Source of the DNA: Desulfosporosinus sp.
GTDB taxonomy: Bacteria > Bacillota > Desulfitobacteriia > Desulfitobacteriales > Desulfitobacteriaceae
Assembly (NCBI GenBank): GCA_020692355.1
Contig: JAIMKP010000021.1
Location: 1-47,859 of the forward strand
Direction of reading: 5' to 3'
Length of the DNA stretch: 47,859 nt
Shown: one piece after another, positions 2,860-22,867 of the stretch
Numbering within the stretch: position 1 is the stretch's first letter
Layout: the number at the start of each line of letters is the position of its first letter
Translations under genes and position numbers: made by a program
The notes under the pieces: generated by a model
Databases searched by the model: none
Seen by the model: only the letters and a program-made list of their open reading frames with translations
What the model was told of the DNA's origin: nothing

Positions 2860-5800
2860 ATGAAGGTCTTCGAGTTATATCAGAACTTGATTAAGGATTA
2901 TTCCGATTATATTCGGAGTTTCATCCAAATCAAAGACAGTCGCATCAGTGAATATGTGGAACAGGCTTTGGACAATGGCCATCTCTGGCCAGAGCCACTG
3001 ATTCAATTAAATCCTTCCTTTGAACCGGGCGGGACCATTGAAGAACTGGTGAGCCAGGGGATCCTGCACCCGGAATGTTCCCGGGTCTTTCGGTTGGATA
3101 AGGGGTCTCAGGCGGGTAGAATAACCATGTTTGCTGCATAAACATCAAACCGAAGCTATTGAGACGGCCTACAAAAAAGAGAACTATGTTCTCACGACTG
3201 GGACGGGCTCTGGGAAGAGTTTGGCCTACATCATTCCGATTGTCGATCATATCATTCGCCGGGGAAGTGGCAAAGGCATTCAGGCTATTATCATCTATCC
3301 GATGAATGCTTTGGTCAATAGCCAATATGGTGAGCTGGAGAAATTTTTATGCTTGGGATATCCTGAAGGACAACAACCGGTTACCTTTGAAAAATATACG
3401 GGTCAGGAAAGCGATGAAAGGAAACAGCAGATTATTGCCCATCCACCCGACATTCTTATCACGAACTATGTGATGATGGAGATGATTCTCACCCGGGTTA
3501 AGGATCGCCCCTTAATTGAGGCTGCGAAAAATATGCGTTTTCTGGTGTTGGATGAACTGCACACCTACCGGGGGCGGCAAGGTGCTGATGTGGCGATGCT
3601 GGTGCGTCGCGTGCGTGATCATTGTGGGGGAAACACGCTTCAGTGCGTCGGTACATCGGCTACTCTAGCCGGCGAGGGAACCTTTGATGAACAACAAGTG
3701 GAAGTGGCTAACGTTGCTTCTCTGCTCTTCGGGGCACCGGTCAAACCGGAATCTGTAATCGGTGAAACTCTGCGCAGGGCGACCCCAGCTAGGGATGCTG
3801 ACGAGCCGGAATTTCTGGCTGAAGTGACCACTAGATTAACAGATAATGGCTACAGGATCCCGGAGGATTACGAAGGTTTTATTCGCGATCCCCTGGCAAT
3901 TTGGATTGAAAGCACGTTTGGTTTGACCACTGAGGCAGCATCGGGCAGATTGCGCCGGAGCCAGCCTCGTTCTATCGCCGGCGAAAAAGGTGCCGCGCTG
4001 GAACTGAGTCGATTGACGGGTATCCCTGAGAATCAAGCCATTCAAGCTATTCAGGAATGTTTGTTAGCAGGTTATCGCTGCAAAAAAACAGGTTCTCCCT
4101 TCCCAGTGTTTGCATTTCGTCTCCACGCCTTTATCAGCCGGGGAGAAACTGTGTACACCTCGATCGAAACTGACAGTGAACGATATATCACTCTGGAGGG
4201 TCAGCAGTTCGTACCAAACGACCGAAACAGGGTGTTGTTACCCCTGGCTTTTTGCCGGGAATGTGGCCAAGAGTTCTATGTCGTCAAAGCATTTAGCGAT
4301 AAGAAGTCCGGTGAAAAGGTTTACGCAAGAAGAGAACTTAACGAAGTTTACAGTGATGAGGATAAGGAGTTCGAGTCGGGGTTTCTCTATCGCAACGTAG
4401 AGAACCCTTGGCCAACGGACGAACGGATGATCGTTGATAGTTTACCAGATGACTGGATTGAGAATTTCAAGGGAAGCGATCGCGTCCGCCGTAATCGTCA
4501 GGGGGATTTACCTCAACCCATCCGGGTGAATTCCCTAGGACAGAGTGTCTTAGATAAAGATTCGGGTCTGGAGTTCTTTTACATCAGAACCCCGTTTCAT
4601 TTCTGCCCTCATTGCGGAGTTGCTTATGGGGCCAGGCAGACTTCCGATTTTAGTAAATTGACAACACTTGGCTCCGAAGGGCGCAGTACGGCCACGACGA
4701 TTCTCAGTATGGCTTCTGTGCGTCATTTACGCAGGGAAGGTTCCTTGCCCGTAAAAGCGCAGAAACTTCTGAGCTTCACGGATAATCGCCAGGATGCATC
4801 ATTACAAGCCGGACATTTTAACGATTTTGTAGAAATCGGCCTTTTGCGCTCTGCCTTATATCAGGCTGTCACAAGCGCAGGGGCAGAAGGTCTGTCCCAC
4901 GACCGCCTTACCTTGGAGACCTTTCGGGCGATGGACCTGCCGCTGGAGCTCTACGCCAGCAGTCCGGAAGCACGATTCCAGGCTTTGAAGGATACCCAGC
5001 AGTCTTTGCGCAATGTTCTAGGCTATAGGCTATACTATGATCTGAGGCGGGGCTGGCGCATCACTTCGCCGAATCTGGAGCAATGCGGACTTCTGGAGAT
5101 CAAATATGATTCTTTAGAAGATATGGCCGGAAGTAACGATGATGATATTTGGCCTTTTTACAAACGAGGGGATATTCTTGTGGAAGGTCACCCTGCTTTG
5201 GTTACCGCTTCAGCCCAGACAAGGCTTAGGGTGGCCAAGGTCTTGCTCGACTATATGCGACGCGAACTGGCGATTAAGGTTGATTATCTCGATCGGGAGT
5301 TTCAGGAACGGATCCAGCAGCAGAGCAGCATGAAGCTCATCAGCCCTTGGGCTATTGATGACGGTGAGCGCATGGTTCATGCGGCAATTCTCTATCCCCG
5401 TTCGCGTAGCAGCAAAGATTTTCAGGGTCATGTCTATTTATCGGACCGCAGTGGGTTTGCCCAATACTTACGTCGGAGGGGTACTTTCCCAGAATACGGC
5501 CAAAGGCTTACTTTATCTGAGACGACGATTATCATTGAGCAATTGCTCAATGCTTTAGTTATCGCTGGGCTACTTGAGATTGTCGATCCAGGCAAAGAGG
5601 GTGAGGTTCCCGGCTACCAACTCAACGCCGCTGCGATGACCTGGTGTGTGGGAGACGGCACGCGAGCTTTTCACGATCCGATCCGGGTGCCAAATGTACC
5701 GGAAGGCGGGGGAAGGACCAATCCCTTTTTCCTGGAGTATTACCGTTCACTCGCCAAGGATTTTTGTGGAGTGATCGCGCGGGAGCATACCGCTCAGGTG

Positions 5801-6931
5801 CCAAACAGCCTACGCTTGGAACGAGAAAAAGACTTCCGCGAAGGGCGTTTGCCAGTGCTGTATTGTTCGCCGACCATGGAACTCGGCGTCGACATAGCGC
5901 AGCTCAATCTCGTGAACATGCGGAATATCCCGCCCACCCCGGCTAACTATGCCCAACGGAGTGGTCGGGCCGGACGAAGCGGTCAACCTGCCCTGGTGTT
6001 CTCGTATTGCTCAGCAGGAAGTCCACACGATCAGTACTTTTTTAAGCATCCTGAACTTATGGTGGCTGGAGCTGTAAAACCACCACGTCTGGATCTGAGT
6101 AATGATGAGTTGATTAAATCCCATATTCAGGCGGTGTGGCTGGAAGAGTCAAAGCTAGACTTGGGCAAGTCCCTGAAGGACGTCTTGGATGTCGATGGAG
6201 ATGTACCCAGCTTGGAATTGTTGCCCTCCGTTAAAGACCATTTTCAGGATCAAAATGCCCGACATAGAGCTTTAACCCGTTCCCTGGCCTTGGTTAAGGA
6301 GCTTAATGCTGAAATGGATGGAATTCTAAATTTCGATGAGGAGCGTATCCGGGAAACCATCAATCAGATTCCTCTGGCTTTCCAGAATGCCTGTGAGCGC
6401 TGGCGGGGACTCTACCGCGCCGCTCTTAAACAGTGCACTGTGCAAAACCGAATCATTACTGATGCTTCCCGTCCCTCCGGCGATAAAGACCAGGCTAAAC
6501 TCCTGCGCCGTGAGGCTGAATCTCAGCTTGACCTCTTGACGGAATCGGATAATATTAGCCAATCCGATTTCTACAGTTATCGTTATTTCGCCAGTGAGGG
6601 CTTCTTACCAGGATATAGTTTTCCCAGGTTGCCCATATCAGCTTATATTCCGGCCAGGCGCAGGGGAGCCGAACGGGATGAATTTCTTAACCGGCCTCGC
6701 TTCTTAGCAATTTCCGAATATGGTCCGCAGAGTATCATCTATCATGAGGGCGCAAGGTATGTGATCAATAGGGTCATCTTGCCGGTGGGTGACCGTAATG
6801 AAGAGATTCTCACCCGTTCGGCCAAGGTCTGTCCGGCCTGCGGCTATCTCTACCCCTTAAGTGACGCCAGTGGCCCGGATCTTTGCGAACGCTGTGGAGC
6901 CTACCAATATCGGCCAAATAGTATTGCGTAG
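2860..6931 (+). pseudogene. Large DEAD/DEAH helicase with Zn knuckles, frameshifted near 3120-3131 and 3'-truncated
   Basis: Two frames together encode about 1350 aa of a Ski2/MrfA-like helicase. Residues 1-93 run from ATG 2860 (ribosome site GGGGAGGG) and end at a stop just past 3131. The helicase core then continues in the next frame: TGTGSGKS (motif I), DELH (II), GTSATL (III) and QRSGRAGRSG (VI). Removing one base from ATAACCATG at 3121 would rejoin the frames. Cysteine pairs (CRECG, CPHCG, and CPACG with CERCG) suggest Zn binding. The first about 80 residues resemble the start of the helicase at 18011 (shared KD..., PG-T-LV-G spacing), so the two are distant paralogues. The last codons lie in a 47-bp segment also found at 25657, and the expected DUF1998 C-terminus is missing. 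A sequencing error could explain the frameshift but not the truncation. Confidence 0.75.
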
Positions 6932-6949
6932 CCGCTTTGTTGGAGTGTT
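6903..6949 (+). repeat. 47-bp duplicated gene-end segment, copy 1
   Basis: These 47 bases match 25657-25703 exactly as read. Here they supply the last residues and stop of the helicase in one frame. In another frame both copies encode TNIGQIVLRSRFVGVL, and only the 25657 copy goes on to an acidic C-terminus (YPDYDEWDE). The segment probably belongs to a third gene whose tail has been joined to unrelated genes. Confidence 0.85.
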
Positions 6950-7508
6950 GAGCAGGTGGGTTGTATTTTGTTATCAACACTATGCCAGAGGGCCGTTACC
7001 CGACGACTTTGACATCAAAAATATGGCGCTCGTGCAGGCCAAAACCTCGCGCCAACTTTTGGACACGATTCTCATCCCTGCCGTGGAAGAAGCCATTTTC
7101 AATGGGGAAGAAGACGCCAAGCGCCTGGCGCAAGCCTTTCAGAAGGTAAATAAAAGCCTCATCCGCCTGCCGGAGTCGGAAAAGGACCTGCAGGATTTTC
7201 AGCTCCTGCGCACGGAGGGGGAGCGGGTTGAAATCATCGCCCAATACGAAGAAAAAGCCGCTTTTGAGCTGAAGGAAGCGGATAGAAATAAACAGGAACT
7301 CGTCGAGTGCTCCATCAAGCAGGTGGAGCGGGTTGCCTAGGAAATGCAGATGATCGACCGCTATGTCAAAGCGGATTATGCCGGGCGGCGGGTGAATGCG
7401 GTCCAGATCAAGCTGAAAGAGATCGAAGCAGACAAAGCAGTCGCCAGAAAACAGGAGGGCTGGCTAAGCAGAAGAGAAATCCCAGGGCAAGAAGTTAGGA
7501 AGGATTGA
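6950..7508 (+). pseudogene. Relic of an unrecognised, helix-rich protein
   Basis: An open frame continues from the 47-bp segment into about 130 codons rich in Glu, Lys, Leu and Ala (for example LIPAVEEAIFNGEEDAK), stops at a TAG at 7338-7340, and continues in the same frame for another 55 codons (EMQMIDRYVKADYAGRR...). The regular heptad-like spacing suggests a helical or coiled-coil segment. Base composition is visibly more GC-rich than the neighbouring genes and resembles the Wadjet remnant at 37-41 kb. With no start, an in-frame stop and chimeric ends it is best read as a fragment. I do not recognise the family. Confidence 0.5.
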
Positions 7509-7513
7509 CGGAT

Positions 7514-8326
7514 TTGACAGTGAAACTTAAACTGCACGATGAGTCTGCACAACACAGGAACAACAAAGATAAGGTTTTCGTCGTTCGCTTTAATGATGGT
7601 CTCAAAGCTGCGATTGTGGATAAGTACTGTACAGTTCCTGATAGTAACTGTGTAACAATACGTCTGGAATTTAACGAAGTCAACGAAAGTGGCAGTTTCC
7701 TAGGGAAGCGTTTTTCTCTCAGCCTGGATACTGAAACATGGAAAGTAAGCGAACTACAGTGCGAGAACGTCAACGTAGATTGCGAAGGACTGTTAAAGGA
7801 ATTTGTCGCAGGTTTGGATGCATCATTAAAAGAAACATTCAGGACGCGCGTAAAACTAGCCAAAGAATATGGAAACGATGAGGTCATGGATTGGCTTGAT
7901 GATGTGAATGTTGAGGATGGTTTGTGCTTTAGTTATACTCAGGTTTATGGTGAGAGGGATAGCCAAGCGTTCATCTTTGAGTACAAGGATAGAAAGTACC
8001 TTGTCGATAACCAGTACTGCTCCAACCCTAAATGCAAATGCAATGAGGCTGTCCTTTCCTTTATCAACATAATTCCCGACAGGGATAAACTGATTTCTTG
8101 GTCTGGAGTTGCCAGCAAGCAAAGAGGGTTTGGTGGTCTGTGTCAACGATTGGGACGATATGGAATTGGTTTTGGGGCAGGCGCGCATTTCGGTGGACGA
8201 AATCCGCCGCGTGTTAAGTTAATATTTACTAGCACTTATCAGAGTGCGGTTCCGGTCGAAATGACGGGTGTCCTACGGCAACTGCGAGAAAGACAAACGG
8301 TACCGGGCTCAACAAGGGGTTCGTGA
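7514..8326 (+). CDS. Unknown protein with a Cys cluster, 3' end possibly altered
   Basis: About 270 aa of unknown function. The start is set at TTG 7514, which has AGGAAGG ten bases upstream; a TTG at 7505 touches that site. The body is acidic and ends in YCSNPKCKCNEAV near residue 175, a small Cys cluster like those next to SEC-C-type metal-binding motifs. After about position 8095 this frame becomes Gly/Arg-rich and unnatural, while another frame gives a plausible protein tail (VCVNDWDDMELVLGQARIS) stopping at 8221. The gene is therefore probably cut near 8095 and joined to another gene's tail. No function is claimed. Confidence 0.5.
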   Translation: MTVKLKLHDESAQHRNNKDKVFVVRFNDGLKAAIVDKYCTVPDSNCVTIRLEFNEVNESGSFLGKRFSLSLDTETWKVSELQCENVNVDCEGLLKEFVAGLDASLKETFRTRVKLAKEYGNDEVMDWLDDVNVEDGLCFSYTQVYGERDSQAFIFEYKDRKYLVDNQYCSNPKCKCNEAVLSFINIIPDRDKLISWSGVASKQRGFGGLCQRLGRYGIGFGAGAHFGGRNPPRVKLIFTSTYQSAVPVEMTGVLRQLRERQTVPGSTRGS

Positions 8327-8351: not shown

Positions 8352-9470
8352 ATGAGGGAAAATAATGTGCAACCTATTGAAAATCTGCTCAGAGAGCGTA
8401 TTTCATTGCGGCGTTTTGCCGATTGTCCACTGAATCAGGGAGACGTGGACTGGATTGTGGAGGGAGCCATGAGGGCACCCACCGCTGGGAATATGATGCT
8501 CTATTCCATGATTCTGATTACCGATCCTATCAAGAAGCAAGTGTTAAGCGAAACTTGTGATCACCAACCCTTCATTGCCAAGGCTCCCTTGGTCGTTGCT
8601 TTTTTAGCGGATTATCAACGGTGGTTTGACTATTATAGGAATTCCAATGTCAACGCCTATTGCCTGGAGCGTGGTCTGGAATTCTGCGGTCCGGATGAAG
8701 CGGATCTGCTGTTGGCTTGTTCCGATGCGCTCATTGCTGCCCAAAACGCGGTGATCGCGGCGGAAAGCCGAGGAATTGGTTCCTGTTACATCGGAGATAT
8801 CATGGAAAACTATGAAAGACACCGGGAACTGCTGAATCTTCCTGCTTGGGTTTTCCCAGTCGCGTTGCTCTGCTTCGGGTATTATCCCGAGGGAGAACGC
8901 CCAGCTCCCAGGTCACGTTTTGACCGAAAATACATCGCGTTTGCAGAACAGTATCAACGGTTCAATCCCGAAGGGCTTAATGAGATGTTGGCCGCTCGGG
9001 CTGCTGCTTTTACTCCGGCTAACCCCTACGGGGCACAGAACTATGGTCAATGGATGTATGCCCGGAAAACGGGCGCACCGTTTTCGGCAGAGATGGCCCG
9101 GTCTGTGCGTGAAGCCTTAAAGAACTGGAAAGGGGATCGGATCCGCATGAATAATCACGTGGATGAGCTTGATGAGGGCTTAACAAATGTTTGGGAGCCC
9201 AGAGTCAGCGAAGACGCGTCTTCGGTGCCTAAGTGGTGGCGCGTGCTCGAAATTATGCGCAAAGAACTTTCGCGGCCTTCCTTTGAAACCTGGATAGCTC
9301 CTTTGCGTCCGGTGCATTTGGAGGGTGAACTTTGTCTATACTGCCAAAACCTTTTTCAAAAAGACTGGGCTGAGTCCCGCTATAAACAGAGCCTTGAACG
9401 CGCTGTGCTTGCCGTCATGCCGGACATTCGCGGAATCACCTTTACACTTGAAAAAACTGTGGAACAATGA
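8352..9470 (+). CDS. Nitroreductase-family protein fused to a DnaA domain-I-like module
   Basis: A 372-aa protein with two parts. Residues 1 to about 245 form a flavin nitroreductase of the FRP/NfsA type: RISLRRFAD with the FMN-contacting arginines near residue 18, APTAGN at about 43, and the ESRGIGSCYIG segment at about 138. Residues about 295-370 read like DnaA domain I (PF11638): WWRVLEIMRKELSRPSFETWI, a variable strand, then an F-KDW-ESRY element, ending GITFTLE. A polar linker of about 45 residues joins them. DnaA domain I is a helicase-loading and regulator-binding platform, so the enzyme may be tethered to a replication or DNA partner; that is inference. AAGGGG lies nine bases before the ATG. 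The TGA stop is supplied by a relic of the hairpin repeat. Confidence 0.8.
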   Translation: MRENNVQPIENLLRERISLRRFADCPLNQGDVDWIVEGAMRAPTAGNMMLYSMILITDPIKKQVLSETCDHQPFIAKAPLVVAFLADYQRWFDYYRNSNVNAYCLERGLEFCGPDEADLLLACSDALIAAQNAVIAAESRGIGSCYIGDIMENYERHRELLNLPAWVFPVALLCFGYYPEGERPAPRSRFDRKYIAFAEQYQRFNPEGLNEMLAARAAAFTPANPYGAQNYGQWMYARKTGAPFSAEMARSVREALKNWKGDRIRMNNHVDELDEGLTNVWEPRVSEDASSVPKWWRVLEIMRKELSRPSFETWIAPLRPVHLEGELCLYCQNLFQKDWAESRYKQSLERAVLAVMPDIRGITFTLEKTVEQ

Positions 9471-10524: not shown

Positions 10525-11438
10525 TTCACCACCTCCAGAAACACGTCTTCCAAAGAAGACTCCTGCACTTCGTATTTCAGAACGGGAGACTGTTCCCGGA
10601 CGAGCAGCTCCAGAATTTTGTGGCCATGTTTTTCAACGCCTGCCAGACGGACGGTCACGGCATTTTCCTTCACCTCCGTCGCCGAAACGAACGGAAAATC
10701 TTGGAGCTTTTCTGCCAGGACGGAAACACCGCTTGGGCCGGCGAGCTCGATCCGCACAGTATCCGGACGGTAGGTGCTTTTAATGTCGGATATATCCCCC
10801 TGCAAAACGAGCCTCCCCTGATCCAGAATGCCGATCTGGTTGCAGATCCGTTCCACATCGGACAAAATGTGGGTGGAAAAAACAATGGCGGTCTGCTGCC
10901 CGGCAAGGGATAAAATGTCCAGGATTTCTTTCCGCCCGATGGGGTCGAGCGCCGACGTGGGTTCGTCGCAGATCAAAAGCTTGGGTTCACTCAGCAAAGC
11001 CTGGGCAATCCCAAGCCGCTGTTTCATCCCCCTGGAAAAGCCGTGGATTTTTCGGTTGACATTTGCAAGCCCCACAAGGGTTAAGAGCTCTTCCGTTCGC
11101 TTGCGGATTTGCTCGGGCTTTTGTCCGGCAATCCGGCCGCATAATTTCAAATATTCTTTCGGTGTCATGTAGCCGTAAAACTCCGGCACGTCCGGCAGAT
11201 AACCGATAGACCGATTCGTTTGGGTTTTTCCGTACGTGACTTTCTCCCCGCATACCCGGATTTCGCCGCGGGAAGGTTGCAAAAAGCCCAGGACCATTTT
11301 CATGGCAGTGGTTTTGCCAGCCCCGTTTTTCCCGATGAGGCCGAAAAGAGAATGTTCGGAAACCGTAAGACTCAAATCCTGGATGACAGAAAGCTTCCCG
11401 AAACTCTTTTGGATGTGGTCCAGCTTCAGAATTTCCAT
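10521..11438 (-). CDS. ABC transporter ATP-binding protein
   Basis: A 305-aa ATPase of the BcrA/NatA class. It has Walker A GKNGAGKT (about residue 37), signature FSRGMKQRLG (about 133), Walker B LLICDEPTSALDP (about 155) and the switch His in FSTHIL. A C-terminal extension of about 80 residues is typical of drug or bacteriocin exporters. It is the third gene of a tightly packed minus-strand operon, overlapping the PLDc_N gene before it at a single base and the permease gene after it by four bases. Confidence 0.95.
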   Translation of the reverse strand: MEILKLDHIQKSFGKLSVIQDLSLTVSEHSLFGLIGKNGAGKTTAMKMVLGFLQPSRGEIRVCGEKVTYGKTQTNRSIGYLPDVPEFYGYMTPKEYLKLCGRIAGQKPEQIRKRTEELLTLVGLANVNRKIHGFSRGMKQRLGIAQALLSEPKLLICDEPTSALDPIGRKEILDILSLAGQQTAIVFSTHILSDVERICNQIGILDQGRLVLQGDISDIKSTYRPDTVRIELAGPSGVSVLAEKLQDFPFVSATEVKENAVTVRLAGVEKHGHKILELLVREQSPVLKYEVQESSLEDVFLEVVK

Positions 11439-14201: not shown

Positions 14202-14246
14202 GCGGGGCAAGACGTTCAATTGCTTAATAGATGGAGGAATCAGCCG

Positions 14247-17200
14247 GTGGAGACTACACTAACTGGTACACCAAGAATAACGATAAGAGGGAATTGGGAC
14301 ATTGGTGCTATAGAAATCCACATCAAGGACTACCTGAGTCAATGTGAGATGTGGGGAGATCTGAATATAAGCTGGGAAGAGTATGACCACATTAAGTCAA
14401 GAATTGCAGGAGCATTGGGCAGCAACCCAACCGCTAAACAAGCGATAACCCTTATTAGAAGGTATCCGATAGTAATGGTGACTGACATTATTAGTTTTGT
14501 ACTCTATGAATATGATAACTGTGAATTTTGGAGCGGGTGGGCAAGCCGTTACAACATAGATATTGGAACCAATAACCAAACTGAAATAGGCAGAATGGTA
14601 CGGGATATATTTGAAAAGTATAATTTTAAGGTTATTGAGGACGGGGGATATGTCTATGTTACACCGATTCTCTGCCAAGCTGGCATTCCCAGTGTTTGCT
14701 TCGATAAATTGTTTGATATTTTAGATTGCACCCTAAACTCATCCTATTTCATGGCACGTGAACTCGTCAATGAATTAATGGGCTATCGCAACTATCTGAT
14801 TGACGTTCCAGTAGAGCGGTATTTTAAACTACATACAGAAAGGGCCATTGAACTCATCGTACAGCTTCGAGAAATGATACATACGGTTAGCGAGGTTTCT
14901 ATAGCGTGTGCCGATGTTCCTGACGTGCCTGGAGTGCAGCTGCGGATCGTGAAGAGGTATGCAATATGGAGTGCGGAAATTAAAAAATTGGGAACGAAAA
15001 GCAGAAAGACTACTCAGTACTACTTTTCACCCAAACTTGTTTACGATGAGACAAAAGGCGTTTGCCTATTTATTCCAGAACAAACCTTAAGGCAAGATTC
15101 AATCTACAAATTAAAGTGGACTATTATCAGTAATGGTAATGTAGAAAGTGAGAAAACTGTTTATTCACAAGTTTATAATGACAAGCGCAGGAATTACACC
15201 CGTGAAGCAAACGTTCCGATAGATTTTGCGAACACCTATACAATTCAACTTACGGATAATGATGACGATTCAGTCCTATTGACAAGTCCTTGGATAATCA
15301 ATGGATTGGGTAAAGAAAACGATATTCTGACTTTTAACGAAAGCGGCTCACTCTTGCCAAAAACACAGAGATACATTTCACGAAAAGGATCTGTCGTGGT
15401 CTTTGATAGCAGTAGGGCAACAATTATAGAAATTCACAGTATCAATAAGATTGACATAGATTTGCCCAAAAGTTGGGCTGGGTTTCAGGCGTTTTGTGCC
15501 TATCCTGCCGAAAAGGATGCTCGTCTAACGATACAGACGTCAAGTGAAGTGGTCAATATTGAAGCTAAGCATTCCTTTGACATTGAGCTAGTTCAAATCG
15601 GCACTTTATTCGACGAGAAATATAATGGCAATGAAACACCGGTTTATACTCGCTTCCCTACTGTTGAGATAATTGGTAATATCGATAATTATTATCAAGC
15701 GTTATTTAATAATTGGCAAGTGGTGATAATTCACAGATTATCAAATACAAAGCATACGGCGATGCTTACCGAACTCGGTCTAAAGGTGTACGACGACCAT
15801 GTGCAGTTTAGTTTAAGTGATTATGCACAAGAATATTACGTAGGCCTGTATGGTGCGTACGATTTGAGGGTTTATGATGGCAAAACCCGAAAGTATTTCA
15901 CCTTTTACCTTTCTCCTAAAATTGAGTATATCGCTCATATTGAAGATATACAGTCGGATCGATATTTTGAAAATAGCCGGGCAGTTTTTTATGTGCAAAA
16001 GAATGAGGCTATAACACTGGAGTTTGAAAATAGAAGTGGGATCAATGTTTTACCGGCAGCTAACAGGGGCGCAGATTGGCAAGAAATATCAACAACGAAT
16101 AGACCAGCCTATATCAGCGGCCAGGTTATTTTTAAAGACAGTGATGGCCTTCAAAAAATCCCTTTTAGAAAAACCATCCGAAAATTAGAGTGGAGCTTTT
16201 GGGATGAACGAGAAAATGACGTAATGGAAATTGGTAAGTCAAAGCAGTTTAATATAGAGGATTTCAAAAAAACAACGTGGCGTTTAGCTTTACGTTTTAC
16301 GGATGCAGCCGAACGGTATGATGCGGTTAAATTAGTGCTTGAAGCAGCAAATTCGGAACAACTGCAAAGTAAAAATATTGTGCTGGATGGGTTCGGTAGC
16401 AGTTCCGTAACGTTAAATTTGTTTCAAGATACAATGGCTGCGTACTTGTTACCTCAAAGGCTGATGCTATATATCACAAAAGGGTATGACGACTATTTGC
16501 CCATTTGCATTGCTGTCGTTAAAAGTTTTGTGCAGTTGAAAAACCCGAAATATACCATTAGTCATGATAGGCCTACTGTATATTGGGATCCAGGACGTGA
16601 AAATGAGTTGTTAAATAAACGGTTGGAGTTTACCTCCCTGAGTGATCTTGATATGGAACCCCTAAAATATTCTCTAAATGAGAAGGTACGAAGGTTCAAA
16701 GATAAGGCCGGTAAAACCTTTGAGGGCCTCGTACTGGACCAACCGTTAAGAGATGGCATTTACTATGTTGATGCGAGGGAAGACCTGGAGTTCTCGTTTT
16801 TCGAGGATGAGGAGCAAGCAATACCCGTCTATGATAGGGAGCATATAATATGTGTCAATGGGAAGCACGTCATAGAGAAACTATTGAACAGTAAAAGCAA
16901 TCAAGTGATTGATTGGTTATCTGGTACAGCCATTGCACTTCATAAATCAGAATGGCTTATCGTCTTATTAAAGAAGCTTAGAGATCAAGTTGAACAAGGT
17001 GAAATGATATTTAACCCCAAGGGATGCGCTCCTTTGCTTTTTTCATTGCTCATCAATTCTGGAGAGAAGTCAAATTTGGCAATAGACATCAAATTAAACG
17101 TCAAAGCAGTTTGTGAACTAATTAGTGATTTTTTGATTACAAATACCGACCGCCTTGAAATTCTAAACCATCTATTAGAGAGCAGCATACCAGATAGTGA

Positions 17201-18008
17201 TTGTCAAATTATAATCAGTGAATTGCAACTTTATCTGTTTTGTCCCAATAACTCAGTCTTACTTGAGAAATCATCTATTCAAAAAATGTGGGACCTAAAT
17301 CAGTATATGGCGATTCTTATGAACGTGAGAAACTGTGTCAGTAATAGTTCCGTTGATATAGACCGTGTCTTGAGTAAAATTGGCTATGAATCCTTGAAAG
17401 AGATTATAAAAATCTCTCCAAAAGCAGATTGTGACAATCAGGACTGGACTGATTGTCTAGAACGAAGTTTAAGTGGTCAATGCCAATGTAATTATGTTAA
17501 GTTTGAGTGTTCCAAGAGAGTCTGGGGTGACGGATTGGAATATTCAACGTTGTTTGTTGCTGATCGAAGAGGTAATTGGAGCAGGCAAACCCCTAACGAA
17601 AGCCATACTGATGGATATGAGATATTTGGAAAAACCTACCTAACCCTGATATTTGAAATCACACCTGAAAACCAGGATGCGGCCACGAAGAAATATGTTG
17701 AATACGCCAATAAGGAAATGTATAAGTCAGAGAATCTTACCTTAAAATATGCGCCGCTCTTCCCTGATTTTCATAAAGTGTTGAAGCATCGGTTAGCGGA
17801 TAGCGCTGGCAGTCAAAGACTGTTTTACCACATTGGCTGTTCAAGCGCCTTGGCGGCCTTATCAACGCGAAAAGCCATTGCTTCAGCCGACTTACAGGAG
17901 CTGTTACCCTTTTGGAAAAATGCCATGGGTGCTTATCCTGAGCTGGTCTACAGAGATTTTATTCTAGCTGAATTATATATACTTTTTACAAATGGAAGAA
18001 GGAATTAG
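14247..18008 (+). CDS. Large protein of unknown function, DruH-like candidate
   Basis: A 1253-aa protein with no motif I can name. The start chosen is GTG 14247, with GGAGG nine bases upstream; a TTG at 14220 lacks a site. The first 200 residues are helical, with a striking YEYDNCEFWSGWA segment near residue 90. Residues about 230-800 look like consecutive beta-rich domains (many short strands, GFQAFCAYPAEKD and similar). The C-terminal 300 residues are helical again. The gene ends two bases before the DUF1998 helicase, so the two are almost certainly co-expressed. A large unknown protein followed by a DUF1998 helicase is the layout of Druantia type III (DruH-DruE, Doron et al. 2018). That identity is inferred from size and order only. 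Confidence 0.6.
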   Translation: METTLTGTPRITIRGNWDIGAIEIHIKDYLSQCEMWGDLNISWEEYDHIKSRIAGALGSNPTAKQAITLIRRYPIVMVTDIISFVLYEYDNCEFWSGWASRYNIDIGTNNQTEIGRMVRDIFEKYNFKVIEDGGYVYVTPILCQAGIPSVCFDKLFDILDCTLNSSYFMARELVNELMGYRNYLIDVPVERYFKLHTERAIELIVQLREMIHTVSEVSIACADVPDVPGVQLRIVKRYAIWSAEIKKLGTKSRKTTQYYFSPKLVYDETKGVCLFIPEQTLRQDSIYKLKWTIISNGNVESEKTVYSQVYNDKRRNYTREANVPIDFANTYTIQLTDNDDDSVLLTSPWIINGLGKENDILTFNESGSLLPKTQRYISRKGSVVVFDSSRATIIEIHSINKIDIDLPKSWAGFQAFCAYPAEKDARLTIQTSSEVVNIEAKHSFDIELVQIGTLFDEKYNGNETPVYTRFPTVEIIGNIDNYYQALFNNWQVVIIHRLSNTKHTAMLTELGLKVYDDHVQFSLSDYAQEYYVGLYGAYDLRVYDGKTRKYFTFYLSPKIEYIAHIEDIQSDRYFENSRAVFYVQKNEAITLEFENRSGINVLPAANRGADWQEISTTNRPAYISGQVIFKDSDGLQKIPFRKTIRKLEWSFWDERENDVMEIGKSKQFNIEDFKKTTWRLALRFTDAAERYDAVKLVLEAANSEQLQSKNIVLDGFGSSSVTLNLFQDTMAAYLLPQRLMLYITKGYDDYLPICIAVVKSFVQLKNPKYTISHDRPTVYWDPGRENELLNKRLEFTSLSDLDMEPLKYSLNEKVRRFKDKAGKTFEGLVLDQPLRDGIYYVDAREDLEFSFFEDEEQAIPVYDREHIICVNGKHVIEKLLNSKSNQVIDWLSGTAIALHKSEWLIVLLKKLRDQVEQGEMIFNPKGCAPLLFSLLINSGEKSNLAIDIKLNVKAVCELISDFLITNTDRLEILNHLLESSIPDSDCQIIISELQLYLFCPNNSVLLEKSSIQKMWDLNQYMAILMNVRNCVSNSSVDIDRVLSKIGYESLKEIIKISPKADCDNQDWTDCLERSLSGQCQCNYVKFECSKRVWGDGLEYSTLFVADRRGNWSRQTPNESHTDGYEIFGKTYLTLIFEITPENQDAATKKYVEYANKEMYKSENLTLKYAPLFPDFHKVLKHRLADSAGSQRLFYHIGCSSALAALSTRKAIASADLQELLPFWKNAMGAYPELVYRDFILAELYILFTNGRRN

Positions 18009-18010
18009 CA

Positions 18011-21000
18011 GTGCCTATGAATCCTATTGAAACGACAGAAACCATTAAAGACGATTATTTAGCCTACTTGCAATCAATCTTAAAAGTGAAAGACGATACC
18101 CTGACAAAGCAAGCCTATCTCGCCTTGAAAGAAAATGAATTCGTTAAAGGCCCCTTTTTGGAAGCCACTCCACCGTTCGTTCCAGGAACAACACTCGCAA
18201 GACTGGTTGAGGAGGGCGTGGCGAGCAAAGGCTTTCAGGCTATCGCGGCAGCCGTCGAAATTGACCGCCCACTGTATGTTCACCAAGAAACAGCGTTTCG
18301 AAAATTAACGACGGGTAGAAAAAACGTCATTGTTGCTACGGGTACCGGGAGCGGAAAAACCGAGTGTTTTATGTATCCTATTTTTAACGAACTCATGCTT
18401 CAAAACGAGGCAAATGACCTGACTTCAGGTATCAGAGCCTTGCTTTTGTATCCCATGAATGCGTTAGCGAACGACCAAATGAAACGCTTAAGAGGATTGT
18501 TAGCTAACTATCCAAGCATCACCTTTGGTCGATATACGGGTGAAACGCTAGAAAATCAAGATAAAGCAATTGAGGCTTATCGTGAAAAGAAAGAAATGGA
18601 ATACAAAGCAAAGAAAAAACGCAAGGGAGTTGATTATACAGACTTCGACTTAAACCCTTTGCCGAATGAACTCATTTCGCGTCAGAGGATGAGAGAAACC
18701 CCACCGCATATTTTGCTCACCAATTATGCTATGCTTGAATATCTCTTGATTAGACCAGAGGATACGTCATTTTTTGATGGTGATCTGGCAAGAGCCTGGC
18801 GTTTCTTAGTCTTAGATGAAGCACATACTTATAAAGGTGCGAATGGAACCGAAATTGCCTTATTGTTAAGACGGCTCAAAGAACGAGTTTGTCAAAACGA
18901 GAAGAACAAGCTGCAATGTATTGCGACCAGCGCCACGCTCGGAAACAGAGATGCCTTACCGGATCTCGCCGCCTTCGCTTCGAATATATTCGATGAGACG
19001 TTTAACGTTGAAGATATTATCACCTCTGAACGCAGAAAGTGTAAAATCGAAGAGGGTATGAAAAAGTATTCATTGGAGGAATATCATGATTTTAAAACAC
19101 ACGTTCAAGCGATGAAGGATGAAGTTAAGGTCGGAGCATGGCTCTATGAGAGACTTGTCAAAGACGAACGAATCGTTACAATCTTAAATTTGTTAGAAGC
19201 CAAGCCGAAAGATCTAACCGAGGTTGCCAAGCGGGTTTTCGTAGATTATGCAGAGCTGTCAACAAGAGAGCAGGGGCTTATACTATTAATCGAACTTGGG
19301 GTAATGGCGAAGCCCGATGCAGACTCTGCCGCTCTTTTACCGGCCCGCTACCATCTTTTTGTTCGAGCCTTAGAGGGCGTTTATGTTGCTCTATATCCAG
19401 GAAAACAAGTCTTTTTAGATCGAAAAGAGCTGTTTGAGGTCGATGACTTGAAAGTACGGGTGTTTGAGCTTGCCAACTGTCAGAACTGTGGGCAAGAATA
19501 CTTGGTCGGCAAAGAGAAAAGTGGATACCTTAAACCCGCTATCGACGGAGAAAAGTTAGAGTATTATATGCTGTCACATGATATCGTTGAAACGGATGAG
19601 GTGGATACTAACGGCGATGATGAAGCCTTTGAAACGGCGGACGTTAAAAAAGTAGAGGCCTATGAATTGTGTACAGTATGTGGCAAACTGACCCTGTCAG
19701 GCGCCAAGAAACGAGAAGAATGTTGTAACACGAAAAGCAGTCGTAAAATCATCAATGTCTATAAGATGAAGACAAAACCAAATGCCAGAGACGTGAATAC
19801 CTGTGCCGCCTGTGGTGGAGTTTCTATGTCAATTATTAAGCGTTTTATGACGGCCAATCAACCCTCCACCTATATTGTAGCAAACAGTCTCTATTCCATG
19901 ATACCCCCACAAAAAATCACAGTTGATGCGCAGATTCCTGAAGATAGCTTTTTTGAGGTTGAAGAGGAGCTTAAAAACCTCGAGTATTATGATGAGTCGG
20001 GCAGAAAGCTACTCGTGTTCTCGGATAACCGACAGGAAGCAGCGTTTTTTGCTGCCTATATGGACAACAAGTATAACCAGTTGATGTGGCGAAGACTTAT
20101 CCTGAGGGAATTAAAAAATAAGTCAGAGGGGTTACTGCTCGAGGATTTGATGAGAAGTCTCGTGAAAAAGGCGAAAGAAGCCGTGTTGTATCCAGACAAT
20201 CTTTCCAATCAGGAAAAGGAAATAGTCGCTGCCACTTATCTAATGAAAGAATTCATGGGCCTTGAGCGTAAACAAGGCTTGGAAGGCAGCGGATACCTTA
20301 AATTCAGTCCGGAGAAAATGTCCCTCAAAAGTGGAAAATGGGATTTGTCAGCGGATGAGGTGTGGGAAGTATGCTGTGTTATGATGGATACCTTGCGCTA
20401 TGCCGGTGCGACAACGTATCCGGAAAATATCGATCCGGAAAACGAAAGCTTTGCACCACGCAACCGCAATGTCTATTTGAGGAAAATAGAAAGTGGAACT
20501 TATGAAAAAGGGACGATTTCCAGCTTTCTACCCGTTGGCTCAGCCAATAACCGGAGATATGATTATCTTCGTAAACTCCTTGAAACTATGGGTAGTGATA
20601 GTGAACAGGCAAAAGTTAAAGGCATGGAAATCCTCAACAGTATTTATGAAAGTATTATTCTTCCGTTAAGTGAGAAAAATTATTTAGAGCGAGTCTTGTT
20701 GGGAAGCGAAGGGGAAGTTACGAGACTTAACTACAAAAAATGGGTTGTGCGCTATTGTGAAGAGGAGGACACCGTGTATCGGTGTCAGCGCTGCGGAAAA
20801 ATCGCGTCTCATAATGTCAAAGATGTCTGTCCAGAGTTCCGTTGCAGGGGTAAACTAGAAACAATCTTAGCCAAAGAATTTCGAAACGACCCATATTACT
20901 TCCAAGCCTATAGCAATGAAAAGATCATCCCTATGGTTGCCAAAGAGCATACAGGACAGCTCAACAAAGACACGGCGGGTACTACGCAGACAAGATTTGA

Positions 21001-22867
21001 AGCGGGTGAAATTAACGTGCTCAGCTGTACGACGACCTTTGAAATGGGGGTCGATGTTGGGCAACTTGAAGCTATACTCCTGCGAAATGTACCGCCGGAA
21101 ACCTCAAATTATGTCCAAAGAGCCGGCCGGGCCGGTCGTAGAACATCGGCAACTGCCTTCTCGGTAACTTATGCGAGGCGTAATAGTCATGACCTTAACT
21201 ATTTTGAAAACCCCACCGAAATTATTAGTGGCAAAATAAAGTCACCCTATATTGAATTGAACAACGATAAGATCGCAGGAAGACATGTTAACTCCATCGT
21301 GTTAGCCTGGTTTTTTCGTAGAAATGAAGAGTGCAAGACCTATTTTAAAGGGGGAGTTCGTTCTCTGGTGGGAAGGGATGGTCGAGCGACGATTTTAGAG
21401 GTGCTTCAGAAAGAATTGGACAAACGACCAGAAGATCTAATTCAATCGATAGAGAGGGTTCTGACACCGCAATTAATGAGCAGACTGGAAATCAAGAAGT
21501 GGGCCTTTGTTGATAAGTTAATCGGAGTTGACGGCACGCTCACCAATTCGATTGAGGAAATGCAAAGGGATCTTGAAACACTTGGTGAAAACCTCAAAAA
21601 ACGGATGTCTAAAATGCAAAAAAGCGATGATTTGCTGCGCTTAATCAATACCTTTGAAAAACAACAAACCATTAACTTCCTTGCTTCGAGTGGTGTCATA
21701 CCAAAATACGGTTTCCCCGTCGATGTCGTTAAACTCAAAATATTAAGTAATGCTTCGGAAGCCAAAGATGTTGATTTGTCACGTGACTTGAAAATGGCAA
21801 TTTCCGAATATGCTCCTGGCAGTGAAATCATTGCTGCTGGTAAAGTGTGGACAAGCCATTCCATCATCAAAATTAGGGATAAAGAATGGCCAACTTACCA
21901 ATATTTTGAGTGTCCGGATTGTAGACGAACTTCGTTCCCCGATGGGATTACCACGATCGAAGAAAAGAACGATGAGAACCTTCAATTGTGCATTTGTGGT
22001 ACACCCATGAAAGCACATAAAGTAATTATACCGATCTTTGGCTTTTCGACATCCTGGATTGAAAAAGCAAAACGAGTGGGGGAGAGCAGGCCTAAACGTT
22101 TCTACCCTACAAGAGTGCAGTTCGGTGGTTTTGATGCGTTAGACTCGTATCAAGAAGCAGAAAAACAAGAAGCAGAACTTCAAATTGCCGATAAGAGCAT
22201 CCATTCTAAATATTCACCCCAAGGAAAACTGGTGATCATGAATAAGGGAACCACGGGAGCAGGGTTGTTCATTTGCAAATATTGTGGCTACGCACAATCA
22301 ACGCCGCAGGAGTTTAAGCATAAGAACAAAATGGGAAAAGACTGCCCGAATAAATACGCCACGAATGCCGCCTTGGGTCATATCTTCACGAGCGATATCT
22401 TGTGGCTTGAATTCCCTACGAGACATGTAAGCCTCATTGAGGGTAAGGACCAATGGACAACATTATTGTATGCCATCCTTGAAGGAGCCTCAGATGCCTT
22501 AGGAATATCAAGGGATGATATAAACGGATGCATCGATAGGTCTGGAAATCATCCCGTCGTGATACTATTTGATGAGGCACCCGGAGGAGCGGGACACGTT
22601 AAACGCATATATTCACAATTTGATGCGGTGTTGAAGGCTGCCTATCATCGTGTCGATGGCCACTGCAAGTGTGGTGAGGAGACAGCCTGCTATGGCTGTT
22701 TAAGAGGGTATTCCAACCAGCTAGACCACGATGTTTTGGCTCGTGGAATGGCCAAGGAATATTTAGAATGGTTGTTATTGGAGAAGCCTGATTCGAGGAT
22801 TAGATATCTTGATAAGTTAATAATAGACAAAAACATAGCTGAAAATGTTATGGCGGAGGAAGTATGA
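18011..22867 (+). CDS. DEAD/DEAH helicase with Zn knuckles and C-terminal DUF1998-type domain, DruE-like
   Basis: A 1618-aa helicase. Starts at GTG 18011 or ATG 18017 share an AAGGA site. Motifs: GTGSGKTE (I, residue 111), DEAHTYKG (II, 269), SATLGN (III, 306), a second RecA half with EAGEINVLSCTTT and RAGRAGRR (VI, 1037). Between and after the RecA halves are many Cys pairs (CQNCG, CTVCG, CAACG, CQRCG, CPDC, CKYCG), probably Zn knuckles. The C-terminus has FDEAPGGAGHVKRI and then CKCGEETACYGCLRGYSN, the MrfA/DUF1998 ending with four Cys. MrfA-type enzymes are 3'-5' DNA translocases, and DruE of Druantia belongs to this group. It is intact, unlike the helicase at 2860, and directly follows its large partner. 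It probably drives DNA sensing or remodelling in a defence complex. Confidence 0.85.
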   Translation: MPMNPIETTETIKDDYLAYLQSILKVKDDTLTKQAYLALKENEFVKGPFLEATPPFVPGTTLARLVEEGVASKGFQAIAAAVEIDRPLYVHQETAFRKLTTGRKNVIVATGTGSGKTECFMYPIFNELMLQNEANDLTSGIRALLLYPMNALANDQMKRLRGLLANYPSITFGRYTGETLENQDKAIEAYREKKEMEYKAKKKRKGVDYTDFDLNPLPNELISRQRMRETPPHILLTNYAMLEYLLIRPEDTSFFDGDLARAWRFLVLDEAHTYKGANGTEIALLLRRLKERVCQNEKNKLQCIATSATLGNRDALPDLAAFASNIFDETFNVEDIITSERRKCKIEEGMKKYSLEEYHDFKTHVQAMKDEVKVGAWLYERLVKDERIVTILNLLEAKPKDLTEVAKRVFVDYAELSTREQGLILLIELGVMAKPDADSAALLPARYHLFVRALEGVYVALYPGKQVFLDRKELFEVDDLKVRVFELANCQNCGQEYLVGKEKSGYLKPAIDGEKLEYYMLSHDIVETDEVDTNGDDEAFETADVKKVEAYELCTVCGKLTLSGAKKREECCNTKSSRKIINVYKMKTKPNARDVNTCAACGGVSMSIIKRFMTANQPSTYIVANSLYSMIPPQKITVDAQIPEDSFFEVEEELKNLEYYDESGRKLLVFSDNRQEAAFFAAYMDNKYNQLMWRRLILRELKNKSEGLLLEDLMRSLVKKAKEAVLYPDNLSNQEKEIVAATYLMKEFMGLERKQGLEGSGYLKFSPEKMSLKSGKWDLSADEVWEVCCVMMDTLRYAGATTYPENIDPENESFAPRNRNVYLRKIESGTYEKGTISSFLPVGSANNRRYDYLRKLLETMGSDSEQAKVKGMEILNSIYESIILPLSEKNYLERVLLGSEGEVTRLNYKKWVVRYCEEEDTVYRCQRCGKIASHNVKDVCPEFRCRGKLETILAKEFRNDPYYFQAYSNEKIIPMVAKEHTGQLNKDTAGTTQTRFEAGEINVLSCTTTFEMGVDVGQLEAILLRNVPPETSNYVQRAGRAGRRTSATAFSVTYARRNSHDLNYFENPTEIISGKIKSPYIELNNDKIAGRHVNSIVLAWFFRRNEECKTYFKGGVRSLVGRDGRATILEVLQKELDKRPEDLIQSIERVLTPQLMSRLEIKKWAFVDKLIGVDGTLTNSIEEMQRDLETLGENLKKRMSKMQKSDDLLRLINTFEKQQTINFLASSGVIPKYGFPVDVVKLKILSNASEAKDVDLSRDLKMAISEYAPGSEIIAAGKVWTSHSIIKIRDKEWPTYQYFECPDCRRTSFPDGITTIEEKNDENLQLCICGTPMKAHKVIIPIFGFSTSWIEKAKRVGESRPKRFYPTRVQFGGFDALDSYQEAEKQEAELQIADKSIHSKYSPQGKLVIMNKGTTGAGLFICKYCGYAQSTPQEFKHKNKMGKDCPNKYATNAALGHIFTSDILWLEFPTRHVSLIEGKDQWTTLLYAILEGASDALGISRDDINGCIDRSGNHPVVILFDEAPGGAGHVKRIYSQFDAVLKAAYHRVDGHCKCGEETACYGCLRGYSNQLDHDVLARGMAKEYLEWLLLEKPDSRIRYLDKLIIDKNIAENVMAEEV

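Follow-up and report, generated by a model that had tools for sequence, protein, structure and literature searches.

In Bacillus subtilis, DnaA domain I residues Thr26, Trp27 and Phe49 are essential and required for DnaD binding, and SirA blocks this DnaD-binding surface (PMC10201431). C-terminal arms of the same family (DnaA_N) already have precedent on other proteins: Rickettsia plasmid DnaA-like proteins (DALP) bear a C-terminal DnaA_N domain (PMC4316617), as do plasmid HTH_36 proteins from Paenibacillus (L171, L173). Here we describe a DnaA domain I-like tail on a nitroreductase, encoded in a 47,859-nucleotide stretch of the acid-loving Desulfosporosinus sp. (contig JAIMKP010000021.1), which was analysed as a whole and is called the window below. 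The fusion is real, rare and recent, and it combines two known families in a new way. Searching the literature for a nitroreductase–DnaA fusion gave nothing relevant.

Architecture and predicted fold of the fused gene

Judged from its sequence, the gene encodes an NfrA/NfsA-type nitroreductase, a linker and a DnaA domain I-like module, arranged as follows:

8352–9470, + strand: whole fused gene, 372 aa; single open frame with an ATG start, and an orthologue of the same architecture in L023 (6001–7200)
8373–9149, + strand: NfrA/NfsA-type FMN nitroreductase domain, residues 8–266; PF00881, sequence and fold matches to 3eof, 5hdj, 5hei, 3n2s, 1f5v and 1bkj
9144–9149, + strand: fusion joint, codons 265 (CGC) and 266 (ATG); the Desulfosporosinus orthologues L025 and L026 end here in ...RGDLI and a stop
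9153–9221, + strand: linker, residues 268–290, predicted disordered
9222–9449, + strand: DnaA domain I-like module, residues 291–366; PF11638, AlphaFold, Foldseek top matches 4tps and 2e0g
9288–9293, + strand: codons T313 and W314, aligned with B. subtilis DnaA Thr26 and Trp27 (DnaD contact; PMC10201431)
9354–9356, + strand: codon F335, aligned with B. subtilis DnaA Phe49 and E. coli DnaA Phe46 (PMC10201431)

The first-pass annotation had proposed these two domains in one gene, and Pfam, PDB sequence and fold searches all bear this out. The nitroreductase profile PF00881 matches residues 13–177 over profile positions 1–167 of 167 (E 1.3e-16, 61.7 bits against a cut-off of 23.5), and many residues of the domain are invariant in an alignment of 46 homologues, including R20, P43–N47 and C145–E152. 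PDB sequence matches for the enzyme part are 3eof, NfrA1 and NfrA2. The score against the NfsA-type family PRK10765 is 98.9 bits, under the equivalog cut-off of 223, and the enzyme is therefore a relative of NfsA and not NfsA itself. The DnaA_N profile PF11638, suggested earlier as a check on the tail, matches residues 295–351 above its curated cut-off (E 1.7e-13, 50.5 bits against 24.6, profile positions 4–62 of 65; E 9.1e-15 when the tail is scanned alone), and the PDB sequence match is domain I of B. subtilis DnaA (4tps_B, E 7.9e-9). All of the landmarks claimed for the tail are present, namely W295-W296, SRPSFETWI (308–315), F335..KDW and ESRY. Only positions 1–75 of the 437 in the DnaA initiator model TIGR00362 match the fused protein (32.1 bits against a cut-off of 343.9), and by this NCBIfam model the AAA+ and DnaA-box-binding domains are absent after the module.

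The fused protein was predicted by AlphaFold2 from an alignment of 46 sequences with a mean pLDDT of 87. The enzyme (about residues 8–266) is mostly above 90, residues 268–290 fall below 50, and residues 291–366 form a compact tail with the predicted order helix-helix-strand-strand-helix-strand; we therefore read the protein as an enzyme with a tethered domain. The nearest solved folds to the predicted enzyme in Foldseek are NfrA2, YcnD, NfrA1 and NfsA (E 2.6e-17 and a target TM of about 0.8 for 5hei). The tail folded alone reached a pLDDT of 81, with two sequences in the alignment and two of five models poor. This model, of the kind proposed earlier as a check, is closest to B. subtilis DnaA domain I (4tps, E 1.6e-4, TM 0.69); E. 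coli DnaA domain I (2e0g) ranks third, and there is otherwise nothing below E 0.01.

Distribution, joint and loss of the fusion

A scan for close relatives over about 85,000 species genomes, which may leave out records very near the window's own genome, gave 80 loci, 70 of them readable without an internal stop. Among these 70, a long C-terminal extension was found only in Acididesulfobacillus acetoxydans, which carries the same fusion (400 aa, with a linker 32 aa longer than that of the window). Its frame is continuous in a finished chromosome (L023, NZ_LR746496.1) that is independent of the window's assembly, and an assembly or frameshift artefact is thus ruled out by the identical architecture there. 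Another long frame, in G037 (455 aa), proved to be an N-terminal extension of the open frame, with the C-terminus ending at residue 274. When the DnaA_N profile was run over six frames of the relative loci, it recovered only the A. acetoxydans fusion and remnants in Peptococcaceae bacterium CEB3, which stands close to A. acetoxydans. Across 83 genomes of the class the fused module occurs in the window's genome and A. acetoxydans and, in broken form, in CEB3 only; a sample of 249 genomes from the phylum gave no further fusion among its strong matches. The survey of tails covered nitroreductases at least about 45% identical to the window's enzyme.

The first-pass annotation had also considered two genes with a stop between them. 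No homologue has two adjacent intact genes parted by a stop; outside the two intact fusions they either lack the module or, in CEB3, hold a broken, frame-shifted remnant of it. Desulfosporosinus orthologues about 79% identical to the enzyme end in ...RGDLI followed by TAG (L025, L026). At the same place the window reads GAT CGG ATC CGC ATG, with CGC (codon 265) replacing the orthologues' TAG, which puts the joint a single codon beyond the ancestral stop. Codon 266 (ATG) is preceded by AAAGGGG and may be a relic start or an internal start.

CEB3 has an intact enzyme but lacks about 200 bases, from GGGGAGCC to TATACTGCC; with them went the linker and the module's first half, and the reading frame is shifted. 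This deletion recurs in a second copy, which has lost further sequence, and a third remnant consists of flank and tail end only. These three copies or remnants of the nitroreductase–DnaA_N gene (L136, 6360–6900 and 13130–14060, − strand; L183, about 10950–11190, − strand) lie on one strand within about 20 kb, the first two with a common internal deletion. The nitroreductase of G001, a genome from the same genus as the window, breaks off after residue 67, beyond which the contig continues with unrelated sequence (L138, 1096–1524, − strand). By this evidence the fusion predates the genus split, or else passed between the genera, and it has been lost or eroded at least twice since. CEB3 lost half of the module with the nitroreductase still open, which makes the module dispensable.

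Family scans recognised no other replication genes near the fusion in the window or in L023, Rfam gave no structured RNA match near the fused gene, and promoter and terminator scans were not above chance. At the A. acetoxydans locus a Mutator-family transposase lies downstream, and upstream there are a DDE transposase and a gene similar to plasmid pRiA4b ORF3. Phage cargo was rejected as an explanation: no viral contig encodes a relative, and phage matches to the tail are weak, with at most 32% identity. Membership in a defence system was likewise rejected, as the fused protein has no PADLOC match and no DruE-like gene was recognised beside the L023 orthologue. The window itself does encode DruE-like helicases. 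One (18011–22867; PADLOC DruE, E 2e-192) lies 2 bases downstream of a 1262-aa frame (14220–18008, + strand) without a Pfam or PADLOC match, which is possibly an unrecognised Druantia-type partner. A second (3131–6931, + strand; E 1e-90) is preceded by an HNH endonuclease (1744–2763) and followed by a weak JetC-like match (6861–7340). The frame upstream of the fusion (7505–8326, + strand) has no Pfam match and may be a remnant, because the G001 match to its last part (L138) has a long open frame in another phase.

Origin of the module and selection upon it

The module is 36–37% identical to domain I of the host's DnaA, about 33–36% when B. subtilis and the host are taken together, and up to 43% identical to other family members. 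Domain I sequences of DnaA from B. subtilis and E. coli entered the alignments and trees as references, and the B. subtilis one agrees with the stretch seen in 4tps. The trees place the module with four non-initiator Desulfosporosinus DnaA_N proteins (support 80/85 to 91/93), and the branch uniting these with the fused modules received 100/97 in the set without outgroups. AU tests rejected a grouping of the module with DnaA of its own lineage (its own genome, G003 and G011; p 0.017); groupings with all family DnaA (p 0.07) and with plasmid HTH_36+DnaA_N proteins (p 0.29) were not rejected. Because the alignments comprise 80 columns and the branches are long, the trees show only that the module was not recently copied from the host gene, and its grouping with the non-initiator proteins is without firm support. 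A recent copy of the host's dnaA, which lies on another contig (C82), was rejected on the first of these AU tests. The earlier wording hinted at a piece of DnaA, but the module does not duplicate the host's own domain I and is nearer to non-initiator DnaA_N proteins.

These four proteins (L132, 1138–2031, − strand; L133, 109–876, − strand; L135, 1242–2150, − strand; L134, 1334–1792, + strand) match no other Pfam family. Their DnaA_N domain is joined to an uncharacterised N-terminal domain or stands first in a short protein.

Between the two intact fusions the module is 77–78% identical. In this comparison the module has a pN/pS of 0.41, between the values of 0.15 for the enzyme and 0.81 for the linker; it is below neutrality (Fisher p 0.0075) and above the enzyme (p 0.017). 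The counts come from one pair and are therefore modest evidence that the module is under purifying selection, weaker than that on the enzyme; the linker is unconstrained.

Proposed role and comparison with known systems

The equivalents of B. subtilis Thr26, Trp27 and Phe49 (T313, W314 and F335) and of E. coli DnaA Trp6 (W295) are identical in both fusions, and a DnaD with both domains is encoded in the window's genome (C43) and in A. acetoxydans. The T-W...F positions are generally conserved in PF11638 and therefore do not single out DnaD.

In the scenario that we consider most likely, an ordinary NfrA/NfsA-type NAD(P)H:FMN nitroreductase would have gained the module in an ancestor shared by Acididesulfobacillus and the window's genus, through loss of its stop codon and read-through into a DnaA_N-bearing frame that was probably a mobile-element leftover. 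The enzyme, presumably a homodimer like its relatives, would hold two modules on flexible tethers, and these would dock on a partner able to recognise the surface of DnaA domain I. The best candidate in the host would be DnaD, through T313, W314 and F335, followed by DnaA domain I itself and the replicative helicase. Docking could localise the reductase near the replication-initiation complex or compete mildly with it. On balance, a recently fused docking arm that tethers the dimeric reductase to DnaD or a comparable partner, with a minor and dispensable benefit, is our leading if tentative reading, held at somewhat below an even chance. It is favoured by profile, sequence and fold matches to both domains, a second intact orthologue, the constraint on the module, the retained contact residues, the host's DnaD, the position of the joint and the precedent of C-terminal DnaA_N domains on plasmid proteins. 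Against it count the two intact cases only, the loss in CEB3, the faster change of the module relative to the enzyme, the general conservation of T-W...F, and the lack of other recognised replication genes near the locus in the window or in L023.

Its main rival is a passenger: a module joined by chance when the stop was lost, which folds by itself and is tolerated although it has no function, with selection only preventing it from misfolding and harming the enzyme, while the enzyme does its usual reductase work; this we hold to be possible, though doubtful. It ranks as the main rival on account of how easily the module is lost and of the conservation of its contact residues across PF11638 proteins. 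CEB3 discarded the module and kept the enzyme intact, its other copies decayed further, a truncated gene occurs in G001 of the same genus, mobile-element genes lie near the A. acetoxydans locus, the module is less constrained than the enzyme, and the linker is unconstrained. Yet a module without a role of its own sits uneasily with a pN/pS below 1 (p 0.0075), with retained partner-contact residues, and with reading frames that have stayed open in both intact copies, without stop or frameshift, over about 14% nucleotide divergence. The tail could also act as SirA in reverse, occupying DnaD so that less of it reaches DnaA, with expression or redox state of the flavoenzyme setting a brake on initiation. 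The kept DnaD-contact residues, the host's DnaD and the avidity that a dimer (by analogy with related NfrA structures) would provide are in line with such a decoy, but the intact loci have no neighbours in common, the fusion is rare and its loss comes easily, and we judge the decoy improbable. Least probable of all is that M266 also serves as a start, giving a separate 107-aa DnaA_N protein, so that the overlap would matter more than the fused form: ATG 266 with AAAGGGG upstream stands exactly at the enzyme's ancestral end in both intact copies, but AAAGGGG sits in codons also constrained for the enzyme C-terminus, and the comparison comprises two sequences.

Two functions had been suggested for the domain at the outset. 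A generic protein-binding arm gains indirect support, as the module matches DnaA domain I in profile, sequence and fold and keeps the residues through which that domain contacts helicase-loading partners; a redox-sensing role at DnaA partners may be possible. A stronger version, in which a flavin reductase is coupled to initiation by a DnaD-binding mimic of DnaA domain I and redox or NAD(P)H state would modulate helicase loading in acidophilic sulfate reducers, seems to us unlikely. As to conservation and neighbours, also proposed as a check, the same fusion is intact in A. acetoxydans, but only two intact cases were found and they do not share neighbours. Together with the loss in CEB3 beside an intact enzyme and the unconstrained linker, these points argue against a conserved control function. 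The fusion, shared with one other species and already lost in a third, is an interesting recent add-on and not a proven control switch. With the place of the joint, one relative's loss and a nearest outgroup without the module, it offers a clear and datable example of how an enzyme acquired a domain for docking to replication partners. Should the tail bind DnaD or DnaA, a redox enzyme would be physically and directly linked to the initiation of replication.

Compared with known systems, the module has the fold of DnaA domain I (4tps from B. subtilis, 2e0g from E. coli) and keeps the equivalents of W6, F46, Thr26, Trp27 and Phe49; unlike DnaA, it is followed by no AAA+ or DNA-binding domain and is attached to a flavoenzyme. 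The enzyme has its fold, a homologous span of about residues 8–220 including the C-terminal helices, and PF00881 in common with NfrA1 (5hdj, 3n2s), NfrA2 (5hei), YcnD (1zch), NfsA (1f5v) and FRP (1bkj), none of which has a C-terminal domain. The accessory DnaA_N proteins of Desulfosporosinus (L132, L133, L134 and L135) are nearest in the tree, share WIAPL and in part LYCQN, and are 31–43% identical to the module, but have the uncharacterised N-terminal domain and not a nitroreductase. Rickettsia DALP (PMC4316617) and the Paenibacillus HTH_36+DnaA_N proteins likewise have DnaA_N at the C-terminus of an unrelated protein, and in them it ends close to where the module does; their partner domain is a DNA-binding replication module, whereas in the fusion it is an enzyme. 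More generally, the fusion points to DnaA domain I serving as a mobile docking arm in proteins other than initiators.
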